From a virus, in the IMG/VR virus record IMGVR_UViG_3300042343_000124, positions 1 through 25,350 of that record: a DNA stretch of 25,350 nucleotides; one strand, given 5' to 3'. The first letter of the stretch is position 1, and each line of letters starts with the position of its first letter. The position numbers were made by a program, and so were the translations under genes. The notes under the pieces were generated by a model. The model did no database searches and was not told where the DNA came from. It saw only the letters and a program-made list of their open reading frames with translations. Below, one piece after another: positions 8,421-19,134 of the stretch.

Positions 8421-8449
8421 AGTATATAGCAAGATCTTCTAAAGGTCAA
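8421..8449 (-). promoter_or_regulatory. Sigma70-like promoter for the exonuclease gene
   Basis: Minus strand: -35 TTGACC (8444-8449), a 17-base spacer, then -10 TATACT (8421-8426). Each box matches the consensus at 5 of 6 positions. The -35 contains the TGA stop of the erpA-like gene (8446-8448). Transcription would start 6-7 bases on, at or next to the ATG at 8414. Confidence 0.6.
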
Positions 8450-8772
8450 ACACTAAATGATGATCCGCACCCACAGCTTGTTTGAGCATTAGGATTTTTA
8501 ATACTGAAGTTACTACCTGCTAGAGATTCAACATAGTCAATCTCAGCGCCTTGTAGATATTGACTACTCATACTGTCTACTAGCACTGCTATATCTTCAA
8601 CTACAATTTCAAAGTCATCGTCATTTTTTTGTTCATCTATAGTAAACCCGTAGCTGAATCCACTACAGCCCCCACCTTGGACAAATACACGCAAGCGACT
8701 AGTGCTAGGTTCGTCACTCATAATTTCTTTGATCTTTTTAACTGCGTTTGGTTGTAAATTAATTAGTTCCAT
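8446..8772 (-). CDS. erpA: A-type iron-sulphur carrier, ErpA type
   Basis: 108 residues. It has the HesB/IscA fold with cluster-binding cysteines C36 ([13 protein letters not shown]) and C100/C102 ([10 protein letters not shown]). The GGGCSGF-x-YGF-T-x-D, the [11 protein letters not shown]-x-x-x-DY and the NPNA[11 protein letters not shown] stretches follow bacterial ErpA far more closely than IscA or SufA. ErpA passes [4Fe-4S] or [2Fe-2S] clusters from the IscU scaffold to target enzymes. An AGGA site precedes the ATG, and an own sigma70-like promoter lies in the 59 bp gap upstream (8807-8835). It ends 32 bases before the exonuclease ATG, with its stop inside the next promoter. Nothing is truncated, so activity is likely. 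Confidence 0.93.
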
Positions 8773-8788
8773 TTTGTTTTTTCCTATA

Positions 8789-8813
8789 GTATGCTATAAT
8801 TATTTTAGTATAC
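8789..8813. repeat. Imperfect inverted repeat at the erpA promoter
   Basis: The arms are GTATGCTA (8789-8796) and TAGTATAC (8806-8813), 8 bp with one mismatch around an 8 bp AT-rich centre. It covers the -10 box of the erpA promoter and, on the plus strand, a TGCTATAAT extended -10 sequence (8792-8800). It could be an operator or simply two overlapping promoters facing each other. Confidence 0.4.
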
Positions 8814-8835
8814 ATGTTTTACCTAGCAACGTCAA
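8807..8835 (-). promoter_or_regulatory. Sigma70-like promoter for the erpA-type gene
   Basis: Minus strand: -35 TTGACG (8830-8835), exactly 17 bases, then -10 TATACT (8807-8812). Both boxes match 5 of 6 consensus bases. The -35 contains the TGA stop of iscA (8832-8834). The expected start near 8800 leaves a leader of about 28 bases with an AGGA ribosome site before the ATG at 8772. Confidence 0.65.
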
Positions 8836-9152
8836 ACATTAAATGATTCGCCGCAACCACAACTATCTTTAACATTTGGATTAATAAATTCAAATCCTTC
8901 GTTTAATCCCTTTTTAGTGTAGTCTATCTCTGTACCATCTATATAAACAAGACTTTTTGGATCTACTACAACTTTTGCACCATTGGACTCAAATATCAGA
9001 TCATGTTCATCAGTTTGATCAACAAATTCCATCACATAAGCAAATCCTGTGCATCCACTGGTTTTTACTCCTATGCGTATACCTATACCTTGGCCACGAT
9101 TGGCTAAGTATGCTGTTACTTTATTTGCTGCTTGTTCAGTTAATGTTATCAT
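8832..9152 (-). CDS. iscA: A-type iron-sulphur carrier, IscA type
   Basis: 106 residues, aligning over its full length with bacterial IscA ([19 protein letters not shown] at the start; [16 protein letters not shown] at the end). The three cluster cysteines are C34 in [13 protein letters not shown] and C98/C100 in SCGCGE. IscA takes iron or clusters and helps mature [4Fe-4S] proteins. The gene overlaps the end of iscU by 17 bp, so it is translated from the same message. The [11 protein letters not shown]-x-EFVD block distinguishes it from the ErpA-type paralogue next door, so these are two different A-type carriers rather than a recent tandem duplication. Confidence 0.94.
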
Positions 9153-9522
9153 GTTTATTTCTATAGTCTGCTATTGCTGATTTAATTGCGTCTTCTGCTA
9201 ACACTGAGCAATGTATCTTTACTGGAGGTAGGGCAAGTTCTTCGGCAATTGCCGAGTTCTTAATTTCTTGAGCTTGATCGAGCGTGCGACCTTTGAGCAT
9301 TTCTGTTACTAAACTACTTGAGGCAATGGCGCTACCACAACCGTAGGTTTTAAATTTAGCATCTGTTATAATTCCGCCATGAACTTCAATTTGTAATTTC
9401 ATAACATCTCCACAGGCAGGAGCACCCACCATACCAGTACCTACATCTGGACTATTTTTGTCCAATGTGCCTACGTTGCGTGGGTTTTCGTAGTGGTCTA
9501 GTACTTTGTCTGAATATGCCAT
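9136..9522 (-). CDS. iscU: Iron-sulphur cluster assembly scaffold IscU
   Basis: 128 residues when started at the ATG at 9522, the exact family length; the start [18 protein letters not shown] is the classical IscU N-terminus and GGAG lies 7 bases upstream. A TTG at 9534 is in frame but sits at the ribosome site. Cluster ligands are present: C37 and D39 in GAPACGD, C62 in TYGCGSA, and H104-C105 in KIHCSVL. The LPPVK motif (98-102), which binds the HscA chaperone, is intact, so it should plug into host ISC partners (IscS, HscBA, ferredoxin), none of which are seen here. It is followed by overlapping iscA and then the erpA type. It strongly resembles proteobacterial chromosomal IscU, suggesting capture from a host. 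Confidence 0.96.
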
Positions 9523-9546
9523 ATCAATCTCCAATAGTTGACTATA

Positions 9547-9575
9547 ATACTACACTATTTATTATTAGTTGTCAA
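9547..9575 (-). promoter_or_regulatory. Sigma70-like promoter of the iscU-iscA genes
   Basis: Minus strand: a perfect -35 TTGACA (9570-9575), 17 bases, then -10 TAGTAT (9547-9552, 4 of 6). The -35 is within the last codons of the upstream radical SAM gene. The expected start near 9540 leaves a leader of about 18 bases containing GGAG. A 6 bp inverted repeat (GTTGAC 9537-9542 and GTCAAC 9571-9576) frames the site. Confidence 0.6.
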
Positions 9576-10406
9576 CCACTCGGGAGAATGTCTTGCCTGA
9601 TTTAGATCATCTTCTTTTATTTCTTTAATTTCAAATATAGGTTTAGACATTTCTCTATATTCACCCAATGCTGTATGCCATTTAAGATTTTCTGGACAAA
9701 ATTCACATTGTGGGATATGCTGATCTTTAGTTGCTACAAATTGCTGTAACTCTTCCTCGGAGCAATCTGCTGTTAATGGTTTAAAACTGTATAATAATTT
9801 ACGTTGTCTATCATCCATCCGCAAATCAAATTGCTGATCAAAATCAGGAAGACCGCTCATAGCAGGACATTTATACAATTTTCCGTTATACATTGTGTGA
9901 TCGTGTTTCATATCACATACATCAAACGCTCGTTTAGGATTGCTTTGATGCAACACCCAATGGTCGTCTTCCTTTATTACTGTATTTTGATGAAAAATAT
10001 ATGCTTCAAATGGTCCAGCAAGATTTTTCCATTTTTCTTTTAGTTCGTCTGCAGTCGCAGGATCGTGAAGACTGAGCCCAATTCCTACAGAATATTTTCG
10101 CCAATATTCCAATGGATCAAATTTTTGATAAGTTCCATTTGTTTGTATCATAATAACGGCATTGGGCCATAATCTACGTAAGTTAGCGCACCATTTTTCT
10201 AAGTCTGGGTTAAGTGTAGGTTCACCACCTATAATAGTAATACGTGGTAGCTCTAATCTTTTTGACCATGCTTCGTATTCATCTGCATAGTCGTCCCAGT
10301 ATTGATGTCCTTTAAAGTTTAAGTCGTTGAAACGGTTGCAACCTCTGCAGGAGAGATTACAAACATTTGTGATATAAAATTCTACTACAGGGAAAAGTTT
10401 GATCAT
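9555..10406 (-). CDS. Radical SAM protein beside the Fe-S cassette
   Basis: 283 residues. C16-x3-C20-x2-C23 (NVCNLSCRGCNRF) binds the [4Fe-4S] cluster that cleaves S-adenosylmethionine, and G60-G-E-P63 is the SAM-binding motif (ITIIGGEPTLNPDLE). The barrel continues through VIMIQTNG and GIGLSLHD. The C-terminal part holds C164, C180, C215, C234 and C237 (YKCPA, PQCEFCPEN), the kind of spacing seen in SPASM or twitch domains that bind auxiliary clusters, so several Fe-S centres per chain are likely. The substrate is unknown; peptide or protein modification is typical of SPASM families. The ATG at 10406 has no Shine-Dalgarno and is abutted by a palindromic promoter-like sequence. iscU follows directly downstream. 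Confidence 0.9.
   Translation of the reverse strand: MIKLFPVVEFYITNVCNLSCRGCNRFNDLNFKGHQYWDDYADEYEAWSKRLELPRITIIGGEPTLNPDLEKWCANLRRLWPNAVIMIQTNGTYQKFDPLEYWRKYSVGIGLSLHDPATADELKEKWKNLAGPFEAYIFHQNTVIKEDDHWVLHQSNPKRAFDVCDMKHDHTMYNGKLYKCPAMSGLPDFDQQFDLRMDDRQRKLLYSFKPLTADCSEEELQQFVATKDQHIPQCEFCPENLKWHTALGEYREMSKPIFEIKEIKEDDLNQARHSPEWLTTNNK
9556..9563 (-). promoter_or_regulatory. Late promoter-like box AATAAATA upstream of iscU
   Basis: Reads AATAAATA on the minus strand, inside the spacer of the sigma70-like iscU promoter and overlapping the stop of the radical SAM gene. It could give late transcription of the same cassette, but in AT-rich sequence it may be chance. Confidence 0.35.
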
Positions 10407-15745: not shown

Positions 15746-15753
15746 TATTTATG
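15746..15753 (-). promoter_or_regulatory. T4-type late promoter box CATAAATA
   Basis: Reads CATAAATAATAC on the minus strand, 20 bases before the TTG start at 15726, in the 83 bp divergent gap shared with the plus-strand gene. Confidence 0.6.
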
Positions 15754-15782
15754 TGTAATTAAATTTAATTTATTTCTTTAAG

Positions 15783-15793
15783 TATAGTATAAA
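15783..15793 (+). promoter_or_regulatory. Possible -10 region for the plus-strand radical SAM gene
   Basis: TATAGTATAAA in the plus orientation gives two overlapping -10-like boxes 16-27 bases before the ATG at 15810. No good -35 is visible in the AT-rich sequence upstream, and no clear Shine-Dalgarno follows. Confidence 0.4.
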
Positions 15794-15809
15794 GATAAGT
15801 AAAATTACA

Positions 15810-16781
15810 ATGAATAAATCTTTCTGTGTAATGCCATTTTATGGTGCCGAATATACTCCAGCTGGATTAACCCCATGTTGTTTACTTCCAAAAAATACTA
15901 ACATAGTACAATTACGGGAAGATATCCTCAATGATACGAGACCCATTGCATGTCAAAAATGTTGGGCATTAGAAGACCAAGGAATAATTAGTGATCGGCA
16001 AATAAAAAACTCTGCATTTGATTTTTATAGCAACAAAGACATACAATTCATTGAAGAAGACTGCCGCAATGGTAAATTTAGTCCTCAAATTGTTAAATTT
16101 TATACCTCAAATTTATGCAATGGCACTTGTGTTACTTGCGGAGCCGGAGCAAGTACCGCATGGGCAACTCTTAATAAAGAAAAAACTTTTGAAATAATTG
16201 ATCAACATCTATTAGATTCAATAGCATTAATTGATGTAATAATAATAACCTTTGTTGGTGGTGAACCGTTGCACGAAAAAAAGAATTTTGAATTGTTAAA
16301 AAAATTAATAGAAATCGGTAATACTACTTGTTTTATATCAATGACTACAAACGGATCAGTTGAGTTATCTACAAAACAACTTGATATATTAAAACAATTT
16401 AAAAATATAAACTTATGTTTAAGTATTGACGGCGTTGATACAGTGTTTGAATATTTAAGATATCCGCTCAAATGGTCGACCTTAATAGATAATATAGAAT
16501 TATATCGATCGATGAATATTGACTTATCAGTTAGTTACACTATCAGTAATTTAAATACATTATATTATGATGAAACTATAGCATGGTTTAACAAAATGAA
16601 ATTACCTTATAATCATAATATAGTAAGTTCCCCTGTTTATTTTTCTCCCACAGTACTGCCAGATGGAGTTGACAATCATTTATTGGATGTTTGTCGAGCT
16701 GAAATTCTAAAACAAGATAATCTTAAGAATATTAATATCCAAGATTATCTGCCAGAATTCTATAAATTGATATTTAAATAA
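15810..16781 (+). CDS. Radical SAM protein, twitch type, only plus-strand gene
   Basis: 323 residues. The radical SAM core starts late: C103-x3-C107-x2-C110 in NLCNGTCVTCGAG, then G150-G-E-P153 (TFVGGEPLHEKK), ISMTTNGS and LCLSIDGV. Before it, residues 1-65 hold a cysteine set C6, C23/C24, C48 and C51 (FCVMPFYGAEYTPAG, PCCLLP, ACQKCWALEDQG) like that of SPASM/twitch domains, here at the N-terminus. This order is known for phage and environmental 'twitch' radical SAM proteins. The substrate is unknown. The gene is much more AT-rich than its neighbours (AAA, ATA and TTA codons), runs against the rest of the window, and converges on the helicase gene with 8 bp between stops. It looks like a mobile accessory gene (moron). 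Confidence 0.88.
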   Translation: MNKSFCVMPFYGAEYTPAGLTPCCLLPKNTNIVQLREDILNDTRPIACQKCWALEDQGIISDRQIKNSAFDFYSNKDIQFIEEDCRNGKFSPQIVKFYTSNLCNGTCVTCGAGASTAWATLNKEKTFEIIDQHLLDSIALIDVIIITFVGGEPLHEKKNFELLKKLIEIGNTTCFISMTTNGSVELSTKQLDILKQFKNINLCLSIDGVDTVFEYLRYPLKWSTLIDNIELYRSMNIDLSVSYTISNLNTLYYDETIAWFNKMKLPYNHNIVSSPVYFSPTVLPDGVDNHLLDVCRAEILKQDNLKNINIQDYLPEFYKLIFK

Positions 16782-16789
16782 AATATAAA

Positions 16790-18178
16790 TCATTTTGTGT
16801 TCTTCAAGCCGGCAAGCATATTTTTGAGTTTACTGCTATCTACACTAGCATTAATTTTAGGACTATCTACAGCGTCTTTATTTACTGTACTACCAGCTTT
16901 GATCTGTCCTAAGATATTATTTGCTGTTGATTTAAATTCCCCGTCATCGCTTACGCCACTGTCGGTAATACGCATTGTGTCAATATCGTAATCCAAATCA
17001 ATCTTTTGACCTACCCCAGTTGAACTACGTGACTTCATACATTGAATTTGATAGCGACCGCGCTCTTTCATAGCACGACTTGTAAAGATACCAAACACGT
17101 TATCTGCTGTGTTGATCTTACTTAGACCACCTGCAATATGGCTATGGTCAAATTCAATTTCTTCTACTGCTCCACGGTTTAACTGTGACGCTGTTACAAA
17201 TAATACATTAAGTTCTTTGGCTAGATTACGCAATTCTTCTGATACATACTTGTCTTTAACAAACAAATCATTTGGGCTAACTTTGGCACTCACTGGCATA
17301 ACCAAGTCCAAATAGTCTACCATGACAAAGTCTACTTTCTTACCTGTTTGAATTTGATATTCTTTTAGGTATGCTCTAATATCGTTAACGTTTGACTGTG
17401 CCGGAAAACCTTTGATCTGATAGTTACCTGCTTTCTTACTTACTAAGCGTACCTTCATTGTAGTTGTGTCGATGTCTTTGCGGATATCTTTTGTGCCCAT
17501 ACCTGTAAGCATAGCATCTGTACGTAGAGCACAAAGCTCCTCACTCAACTCTAAACTTACATATACACCACTAAGTCCAGCTTGTAACCAACTAAGTGCA
17601 ATGTTCATCATAACCAGTGATTTACCAGAACCTGAGCCACCAGCAAAGATATTAAGTTCGCCGCGACTAAATCCACCATATAATAGTTTATCAAGTTGTT
17701 GCCAACCTGTACTTACCTGTCCGCCACTGTTATAATACTTTTCGATACGTGCTTTGGGATCACTAAAATAATCAGTACCCATGTCTTTAGTAAGACTAAT
17801 TTGTACAGCATCTTTGATTAATTTTTCTACAGGATTATAGTCACCCTTCTCAAGCATGTCTGCGGCTTTGAGAATAGCACGTTCAAGTTCTTGACGTTTA
17901 GTAAAACCCTCAAACTCGCCCATAAACCATTCATAGTGGCTTTCTGTTAAATCTGGTACATGTTTAAGTGTTGTGCCCGTAACTGCTTGAACCTGCTCAA
18001 TAGTAGGCATAGCACGATGTTTATCTGTATGCTCTTTGATGAAACGTGCCACATCACGTAGGCTACGGTCAAAGTTTTCTGGATTGTAAATGTTCTGCAC
18101 ACGCACATAACTTTGTGCATCCTGCAACATCATTTCAATAAAAAGTTTTTGTAAATCTGGTGAATAGTCTTTGCTCAT
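16790..18178 (-). CDS. Replicative DNA helicase, DnaB/T4 gp41 type
   Basis: 462 residues from the ATG at 18178 (MSKDYSPDLQ), preceded by CGGAAA; an in-frame TTG at 18190 is less likely. Residues 1-130 are the helical N-terminal primase-contact domain, and 150-400 the RecA-fold motor: Walker A G-S-G-S-G-K186-S187 (FAGGSGSGKSL), catalytic Glu E210 in VYVSLE, Walker B D288 in VMVDYLD, the sensor Q332 in ASQLNRG, and a K/R finger region in CMKSRSSTG. The tail of about 60 residues is disordered and Lys/Ser-rich. It unwinds DNA at the fork with the primase encoded two genes upstream. Its ATG overlaps the stop of the inserted radical SAM gene as ATGA. Confidence 0.94.
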   Translation of the reverse strand: MSKDYSPDLQKLFIEMMLQDAQSYVRVQNIYNPENFDRSLRDVARFIKEHTDKHRAMPTIEQVQAVTGTTLKHVPDLTESHYEWFMGEFEGFTKRQELERAILKAADMLEKGDYNPVEKLIKDAVQISLTKDMGTDYFSDPKARIEKYYNSGGQVSTGWQQLDKLLYGGFSRGELNIFAGGSGSGKSLVMMNIALSWLQAGLSGVYVSLELSEELCALRTDAMLTGMGTKDIRKDIDTTTMKVRLVSKKAGNYQIKGFPAQSNVNDIRAYLKEYQIQTGKKVDFVMVDYLDLVMPVSAKVSPNDLFVKDKYVSEELRNLAKELNVLFVTASQLNRGAVEEIEFDHSHIAGGLSKINTADNVFGIFTSRAMKERGRYQIQCMKSRSSTGVGQKIDLDYDIDTMRITDSGVSDDGEFKSTANNILGQIKAGSTVNKDAVDSPKINASVDSSKLKNMLAGLKNTK

Positions 18179-19134
18179 ATTTTTCCGCAATTAAAAGTAC
18201 AAAAATCTGGCTTGTTAATTTCTATATTATTATAATATTGATCTAGTGTAGATTTAGTAGCTAGCATCTGAGATATTGTAGTTTTACTTATATCGTATGT
18301 TTCTCTATTCTTATAAAATTCATTTTTATAATAAAATCTATAATCTCCGGCCCAGCAACATGGCATGTAAATACCGTCAGCTGAGATGAAGTGCATATTA
18401 TTAGTACTCTTACATACTGGATTAATTTTATCTGGTATTTTATGCTGTTTCCACAAAATAATAGTAGAATCTCTACCCCCTACATGACTGCTATTATATA
18501 ACAATCCGTCTTTGGCATTTTCTATTTTAGCATACTTTATGGGCTTAAGCCAATCATTATCTTCCCATCGGTCACTATTATTTAGAACAAAATCATCCAT
18601 TCCTAACTTTTGACTAATAATTCTAGCTTCATCAACGGTATCTTCATTGTAGCTGAATACAATATATTTCCAGACAACCTGTGCCCGACTACTAACCATA
18701 ACTTCTATGCCTGTTTGGATACTAGTCCAGTCGGCATTGATTCGATATGTAGTAAAATTGCCAGGAGTTCCGTCGATTGAAAAATTAACAATGTCATTTT
18801 GGTCTAATAGTTTAGCCAGTTCTTGCCACCATACTTTTGATTTATAACTACCATTTGTATGTATGGATATTTTACACTTTTTATTTTTAAAGTACGCAAT
18901 AAGCTCAAACAAATTTGGATAATATATAGGATCTCCATAGTTGCCATTTAATCCTATCGACATTCCAGTTAGGTCAATATCTAAAAACTGTTTTAGATGA
19001 TCTAGGTTAAGATTTTGATTGTCCCAATTTTTAGGCTTAAACTGTTCAACAAAATTTGTACGTGGACATCTCGGACATTTAAGAGTACACATATTTGTGG
19101 GTTCGATATGAAACCCTTTTATTTTATTAAGCAT
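18175..19134 (-). CDS. Radical SAM/SPASM protein inserted between primase and helicase
   Basis: 319 residues. C16-x3-C20-x2-C23 (NMCTLKCPRCPRTNF) binds the SAM cluster. In place of GGEP there is G64-N-Y-G-D-P69 (GLNGNYGDPIYYP), the variant found in a subset of SPASM-type proteins. The barrel continues with ISIHTNGS and VNFSIDGTPG. C241, C259/C260, C312 and C316 (NPVCKS, YMPCCWAGD, FCTFNCGKI) form the probable auxiliary cluster domain at the C-terminus. The substrate is unknown. Its start overlaps the primase stop by 8 bp and its stop overlaps the helicase start (ATGA), so it is locked into the replication operon and expressed with it. The sequence is AT-rich compared with both flanking genes. 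Confidence 0.9.
   Translation of the reverse strand: MLNKIKGFHIEPTNMCTLKCPRCPRTNFVEQFKPKNWDNQNLNLDHLKQFLDIDLTGMSIGLNGNYGDPIYYPNLFELIAYFKNKKCKISIHTNGSYKSKVWWQELAKLLDQNDIVNFSIDGTPGNFTTYRINADWTSIQTGIEVMVSSRAQVVWKYIVFSYNEDTVDEARIISQKLGMDDFVLNNSDRWEDNDWLKPIKYAKIENAKDGLLYNSSHVGGRDSTIILWKQHKIPDKINPVCKSTNNMHFISADGIYMPCCWAGDYRFYYKNEFYKNRETYDISKTTISQMLATKSTLDQYYNNIEINKPDFCTFNCGKI

Follow-up and report, generated by a model that had tools for sequence, protein, structure and literature searches.

An exchangeable radical SAM gene at the primase-helicase junction of jumbo phages

Why a radical SAM gene should lie directly between the DNA primase and replicative helicase genes of a virus is the question raised by a 25,350-bp fragment of a viral contig, which is referred to here as the window. 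The gene, called rSAM_A below, had originally been predicted to be locked between these two genes in a T4-type phage, where it might modify a replication protein, a nucleotide or a peptide or be simply a tolerated insertion. We lean towards the view that rSAM_A is a selected yet exchangeable accessory enzyme in a primase-helicase slot of jumbo phages, perhaps acting on a sugar or another small metabolite, and that it is not part of the primosome. The closest matches of the primase and helicase among cultured phages were those of the jumbo phages PA5oct, Atu_ph07 and Phosso, with 32-52% identity, and the T4-type label therefore holds loosely but not in the sense of a close T4 relative.

The arrangement itself was found as predicted, with the radical SAM reading frame between the two replication genes, an 8-bp overlap on the primase side and an ATGA on the helicase side (Table 1). 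The primase stop lies inside the overlap ATGCTTAA, which changes the end of the primase from YN* to HA*. The mechanically called helicase reading frame (16790-18190) uses a TTG start upstream of the ATG at 18178. Several contigs carry the same arrangement, which rules out an assembly artefact as its source.

Table 1. Positions of the features discussed in the text, numbered along the window
Feature	Position	Strand	Evidence
Fe-S assembly block: HesB/IscA-like (8446-8772), IscA-like (8832-9152), IscU-like (9136-9534)	8446..9534	-	PF01521 E 5e-19 and 5e-23; PF01592 E 3e-51
rSAM_C, third radical SAM gene	9555..10406	-	PF04055 E 1.9e-10
Second exchange segment, just beyond the helicase	15752..16800		Alignment of window with L004
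rSAM_B, N_Twi_rSAM family, convergent with the helicase	15810..16781	+	NF033640 202 bits, cut-off 170
DnaB-like replicative helicase, 462 aa from ATG 18178	16790..18178	-	PF03796 E 1e-21; PHROG 19 E 2.5e-72
ATGA, rSAM_A stop and helicase start	18175..18178	-	Sequence; kept across orthologs
rSAM_A, radical SAM / Twitch-like enzyme, 319 aa	18175..19134	-	PF04055 E 1.3e-7; orthologs in 48 viral loci
Twitch-like Cys set C241-X12-G254-X4-C259, C260, C312-X3-C316	18187..18414	-	Invariant within the junction family
GNYGDP replacing GGEP, residues 64-69	18928..18945	-	G64, G67, D68 invariant
CxxxCxxC (C16, C20, C23), SAM-binding 4Fe-4S cluster	19066..19089	-	Invariant, 36-row alignment
Primase/rSAM_A 8-bp overlap ATGCTTAA	19127..19134	-	Compared: 26 rSAM_A and 45 empty junctions
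DNA primase, 341 aa	19127..20152	-	PHROG 47 E 3e-41; Toprim_2

The protein belongs to the radical SAM superfamily, scoring above the cut-off of Pfam PF04055 (32.4 against 29.5 bits), and both the CxxxCxxC motif and the GNYGDP that stands in place of GGEP were confirmed. These three cysteines were found not to vary in 11 orthologs, nor were G64, G67 and D68 or the C-terminal residues C241, C259, C260, C312 and C316. The C-terminal cysteine set had also been foreseen, but its assignment to SPASM does not stand, as the Pfam SPASM profile PF13186 gave no match at E 0.01 and the seven-cysteine SPASM pattern CX9-15GX4C-CX2CX5CX3C-C, which denotes two auxiliary clusters, is absent; only the five C-terminal cysteines listed above are conserved. 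A Twitch region is defined by CX9-15GX4C with two more cysteines and one auxiliary cluster, and rSAM_A has an invariant CX12GX4C...CX3C in the junction family, located in a part of the model where confidence is low. The C-terminus is thus best described as a putative one-cluster Twitch-like region rather than a full SPASM domain. The AlphaFold model built from 36 sequences reached pLDDT 83 and pTM 0.86, with values above 90 in the core (an earlier model from 11 sequences had pLDDT 69.5 and a poor C-terminus), and, in keeping with a partial TIM-barrel core, the PDB matches listed by Foldseek were radical SAM enzymes with probability 1.00. Values of dN/dS between orthologs range from 0.06 to 0.30, which together with the invariant Fe-S cysteines points to an enzyme in use. 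rSAM_A thus appears to be a working enzyme kept intact by purifying selection, and the dN/dS values rule out a decaying passenger. The fallback of a tolerated insertion comes nearer to our findings than a replication role does, but it leaves out this selection.

Whether the gene is tied to its neighbours was examined in about 155 viral loci gathered by primase and helicase searches, in which 145 junctions were readable at both ends (near-duplicates counted). Empty junctions, with spacers of -2 to 44 bp, form the majority (86 of 145). The junction of phage Phosso is empty as well. The 59 filled ones hold rSAM_A (22), B12-binding radical SAM proteins (6), N-terminal-SPASM radical SAM proteins (4), endonucleases of the NUMOD3 type (4: L067, L068, L096 and L158) or the HNH type (2: L010 and L078), methyltransferases, an NAD-dependent epimerase and proteins without a Pfam match. 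Searches against PHROGs returned no function for ten proteins, of which nine are junction cargo, and motif-based labels for these proteins, such as SGNH-like or sulfotransferase-like, carry no weight in what follows. The empty, rSAM_A and unrelated-cargo states are interspersed on the helicase tree and the junction is a swap slot. With most junctions lacking rSAM_A, others holding unrelated cargo and clean swaps between them, the gene is not locked in place, and it lacks the constant presence alongside primase and helicase that is expected of a primosome component. As a separate observation, primases of two types, one about 60-100% and the other about 40% identical to that of the window, were seen to pair with 72-83% identical helicases in loci L091-L160, so that the primase itself seems to be exchanged.

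This cargo has turned over many times. On a quick tree of 127 helicases, which is blurred by recombination, the filled or empty state changes 39 times and the presence of rSAM_A 20 times, with at least 12 of the latter changes forced by well supported branches. Locus L082 carries rSAM_A and L083 is empty while their flanks are 91-95% identical, and the flanks of the filled and empty pairs L025/L052 and L166/L041 are 85-90% identical. From the helicase start onward L042 and L078 share 99.1% identity over 5,032 bp, and they differ in cargo (rSAM_A in the former and an HNH gene in the latter) and have primases only 78% identical. L042 and L168 show zero mismatches from the primase start through rSAM_A to bp 427 of the helicase and then diverge clearly, which marks a crossover within the helicase gene. 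The order found in L193 (3647-7756), namely rSAM_A, a helicase fragment, a primase fragment, a methyltransferase with another ORF and a whole helicase, is the scar expected of unequal recombination between two junctions. These comparisons show that recombination through the conserved flanking genes has time and again brought rSAM_A in, removed it or put other cargo in its place, and slot cargo in general may be traded in this manner.

Homing endonucleases might drive the slot, with rSAM_A spreading as cargo that is co-converted with endonuclease-cut junctions. This is suggested by the HNH and NUMOD3-type genes in the same slot and by the HEG-islands described for phages (PMC10448857). However, most filled junctions hold no endonuclease and ordinary homologous recombination via the flanks suffices, and we regard such a drive as rather unlikely. 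It would in any case account for the spread of the gene and not for the function of the enzyme, and it is compatible with rSAM_A as exchangeable cargo.

The position of the rSAM_A family, on the other hand, was observed to be almost fixed. A search by its own motifs, independent of the flanks, returned 48 viral loci, and 46 of them lie at the primase-helicase junction (in four of them the contig breaks off, so that the helicase flank alone can be seen). The same gene in another place with no link to replication genes, which would have spoken against the original prediction, was therefore encountered only twice: in L189, where about 3 kb separate rSAM_A from the primase and the gene branches from within the junction copies on the family tree, and in L194, where a copy with 44% identity has neither flanking gene in view. 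In the latter viral contig (L194:456-4422) radical SAM genes have neighbours that, judged from translations only, are porin-like and AhpC/AhpD-like. Of the 26 junctions with rSAM_A that were left after dereplication, 23 have an rSAM_A start (ATGCTTRA, ATGCTTAG or ATGTTTGA) that supplies the primase stop, and the primase ends there in A (once V) instead of the N seen where a primase of that type borders an empty junction. A junction with a B12-radical-SAM gene, L054, keeps the RRYA* primase end of its relatives with rSAM_A, and its present cargo seems to have taken the place of rSAM_A. The junction position is a real property of the rSAM_A family, and its near-exclusive site could also reflect some benefit from the junction itself.

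With no intergenic base on either side, rSAM_A fits the slot exactly. No strong Shine-Dalgarno sequence was found before rSAM_A, and the co-translation that had been proposed is plausible by stop/start coupling, as it fits both the conserved overlaps of the dereplicated junctions and the lack of a good Shine-Dalgarno; the enzyme would then be expressed with the replication operon. It is conceivable, and we put it forward tentatively, that the junction is a dedicated exchange site to which rSAM_A has become adapted, its start being the primase stop and its stop overlapping the helicase start, so that termination-reinitiation would tie the dose of the cargo to that of the primosome.

The near confinement of the family to this junction and its conserved overlaps could also indicate a specialised primosome accessory that modifies the primase or the helicase. 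This role, part of the original prediction, received no support and we consider it very improbable. The junction is without any insert in 86 of the 145 cases and the presence of rSAM_A flips between near-identical helicases. Among 77 phages that share one primase type, none of the helicase columns was associated with rSAM_A (best p 0.027 in 518 tests), in a test that would miss an invariant target. Only the last residue of the primase was associated with it, and mechanically so because the rSAM_A start codon itself changes this residue.

The exchangeable accessory enzyme that we favour leaves the question of its substrate. The best Foldseek match of the rSAM_A model was BlsE (7vob; E 5e-9, TM 0.55, about 15% identity), with SuiB, SkfB, DesII, MoaA and viperin close behind and BtrN also matched. 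BlsE (blasticidin S), DesII and BtrN act on sugar-type substrates. They are the best or high-ranking folds, but identity is about 15%, TM is about 0.55 or lower and membership is not supported by sequence. No NCBIfam model was satisfied by rSAM_A. The best profile, TIGR04317 (tungsten-cofactor oxidoreductase radical SAM maturase), is matched by all 36 members, but with 53.3 bits against a cut-off of 380 rSAM_A is no member of this equivalog, and PDB sequence searches gave weak matches only.

An enzyme acting on nucleotides or on DNA or RNA bases, in the manner of viperin, MoaA or QueE, would explain the place in a replication operon. All three are among the structural and profile matches and ribonucleotide reductase genes lie nearby, but all NCBIfam scores fall far under the cut-offs (29.6 against 180 bits for prokaryotic viperin, NF038283, and 16 against 284 for MoaA). 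The slot also holds unrelated cargo and the place therefore says little on the substrate; we think a nucleotide or base substrate improbable. A role in maturing a peptide of the RiPP type, like that of SuiB, SkfB and EpeE, seems to us more doubtful still. SuiB and SkfB occupy Foldseek ranks 2-7 and the C-terminus is Twitch-like, but rSAM_A starts straight at the radical SAM core without an N-terminal extension able to bind a leader peptide. It also abuts both neighbours in nearly all of the 26 junctions, which leaves no room for an adjoining precursor gene, although one may lie at a distance.

Cellular orthologs were rare, as one genome scan returned none and another only five distant relatives with 26-29% identity. 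Two of these five (L209 and L210) lie near genes for glycosyltransferases, sulfotransferases and a polysaccharide flippase-type protein. Another of the five lies in L213 (1-12457), a contig binned as a Rickettsiales MAG, which holds a near-unbroken row of radical SAM/SPASM-like ORFs (one of them Pfam-tested) and is probably itself phage DNA. The nearest homolog in a cultured phage, that of CP220, has 33% identity over half the length and lies beside nucleotide-diphospho-sugar transferases. From these analogies and the modelled fold, our leading guess, a tentative one, is that the substrate is of the sugar type or some other small molecule. The enzyme would generate a 5'-deoxyadenosyl radical and modify a small metabolite, probably of the sugar or nucleotide-sugar type, and the product may alter the surface of the host or the virion, or the metabolite pool.

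Two further radical SAM genes in the window, rSAM_B and rSAM_C, had been overlooked. The segment with rSAM_B is swapped in the near sister L003-L006 for an unrelated and oppositely oriented radical SAM gene, and the flanks of this swap are 95-99% identical between the window and L004. A second radical SAM family (L003:3894-4892 and relatives), starting with approximately MIxYxxIRDVHLEISSLCNARCP, was often found directly downstream of the helicase whether rSAM_A was present or not. The third gene, rSAM_C, adjoins iscU-, iscA- and hesB-like phage genes (8446-10406), and the IscU and A-type carriers that the phage itself encodes may assist in supplying the clusters of rSAM_A. Relatives of 200-330 kb have 3-13 radical SAM genes each, and of 16 longer related records 14 have iscU. 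This gene was ruled out as an indicator of how many radical SAM genes a phage carries, since a 141-kb relative without radical SAM genes also has it. In three related jumbo-phage contigs (L201:620-1011, L202 on the minus strand and L203:662-1058) the iscU frame is interrupted at one and the same codon, which follows directly on the GAPACG motif of the active site (GGA TGA...), and it resumes at GG(T/A)-GA-GT after 4 or 5 extra bases. Endonuclease-like ORFs flank the split gene in L201, and the split resembles a tiny bypass site of the T4 gene 60 type or an escape frameshift from a homing endonuclease.

Other systems are known in which a single phage has many radical SAM genes. The Campylobacter phages CP220 and CPt10 have 11-12 of them and, like the present viruses, are large phages with modules that differ between close relatives (PMC2853527). 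Their genes, however, are clustered in tandem together with genes for amidinotransferase and sugar transferases and do not lie at the primase-helicase junction. An Aeromonas giant phage has eight radical SAM genes (PMC12390700). Marine T4-like genomes carry an A-type carrier and/or IscU, and one such virus has 12 radical SAM genes plus an Fe-S carrier, while no primase-helicase slot is described for them in the part of that source available to us (PMC5332604). In T4 itself five non-replication genes (61.1, 61.2, sp, 61.4 and dmd) lie between the gene 61 primase and the gene 41 helicase, but these are several small unrelated genes and none of them encodes a radical SAM protein. It is an established idea that genes are laterally exchanged around core genes and that homing endonucleases play a part (PMC2993671, PMC10448857). 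What is new here is the subfamily of radical SAM genes, which occupies a cargo site of a familiar type, and the evidence for its exchange is unusually clear.

In certain large phages radical SAM genes are remarkably numerous, which calls for an explanation. At this locus accessory genes change places in the midst of the core genes of replication, and both the crossovers and a scar left by an intermediate can be seen, which is of interest for the way in which large phages take up cargo. The many near-isogenic pairs with and without rSAM_A make the effect of the gene directly testable.
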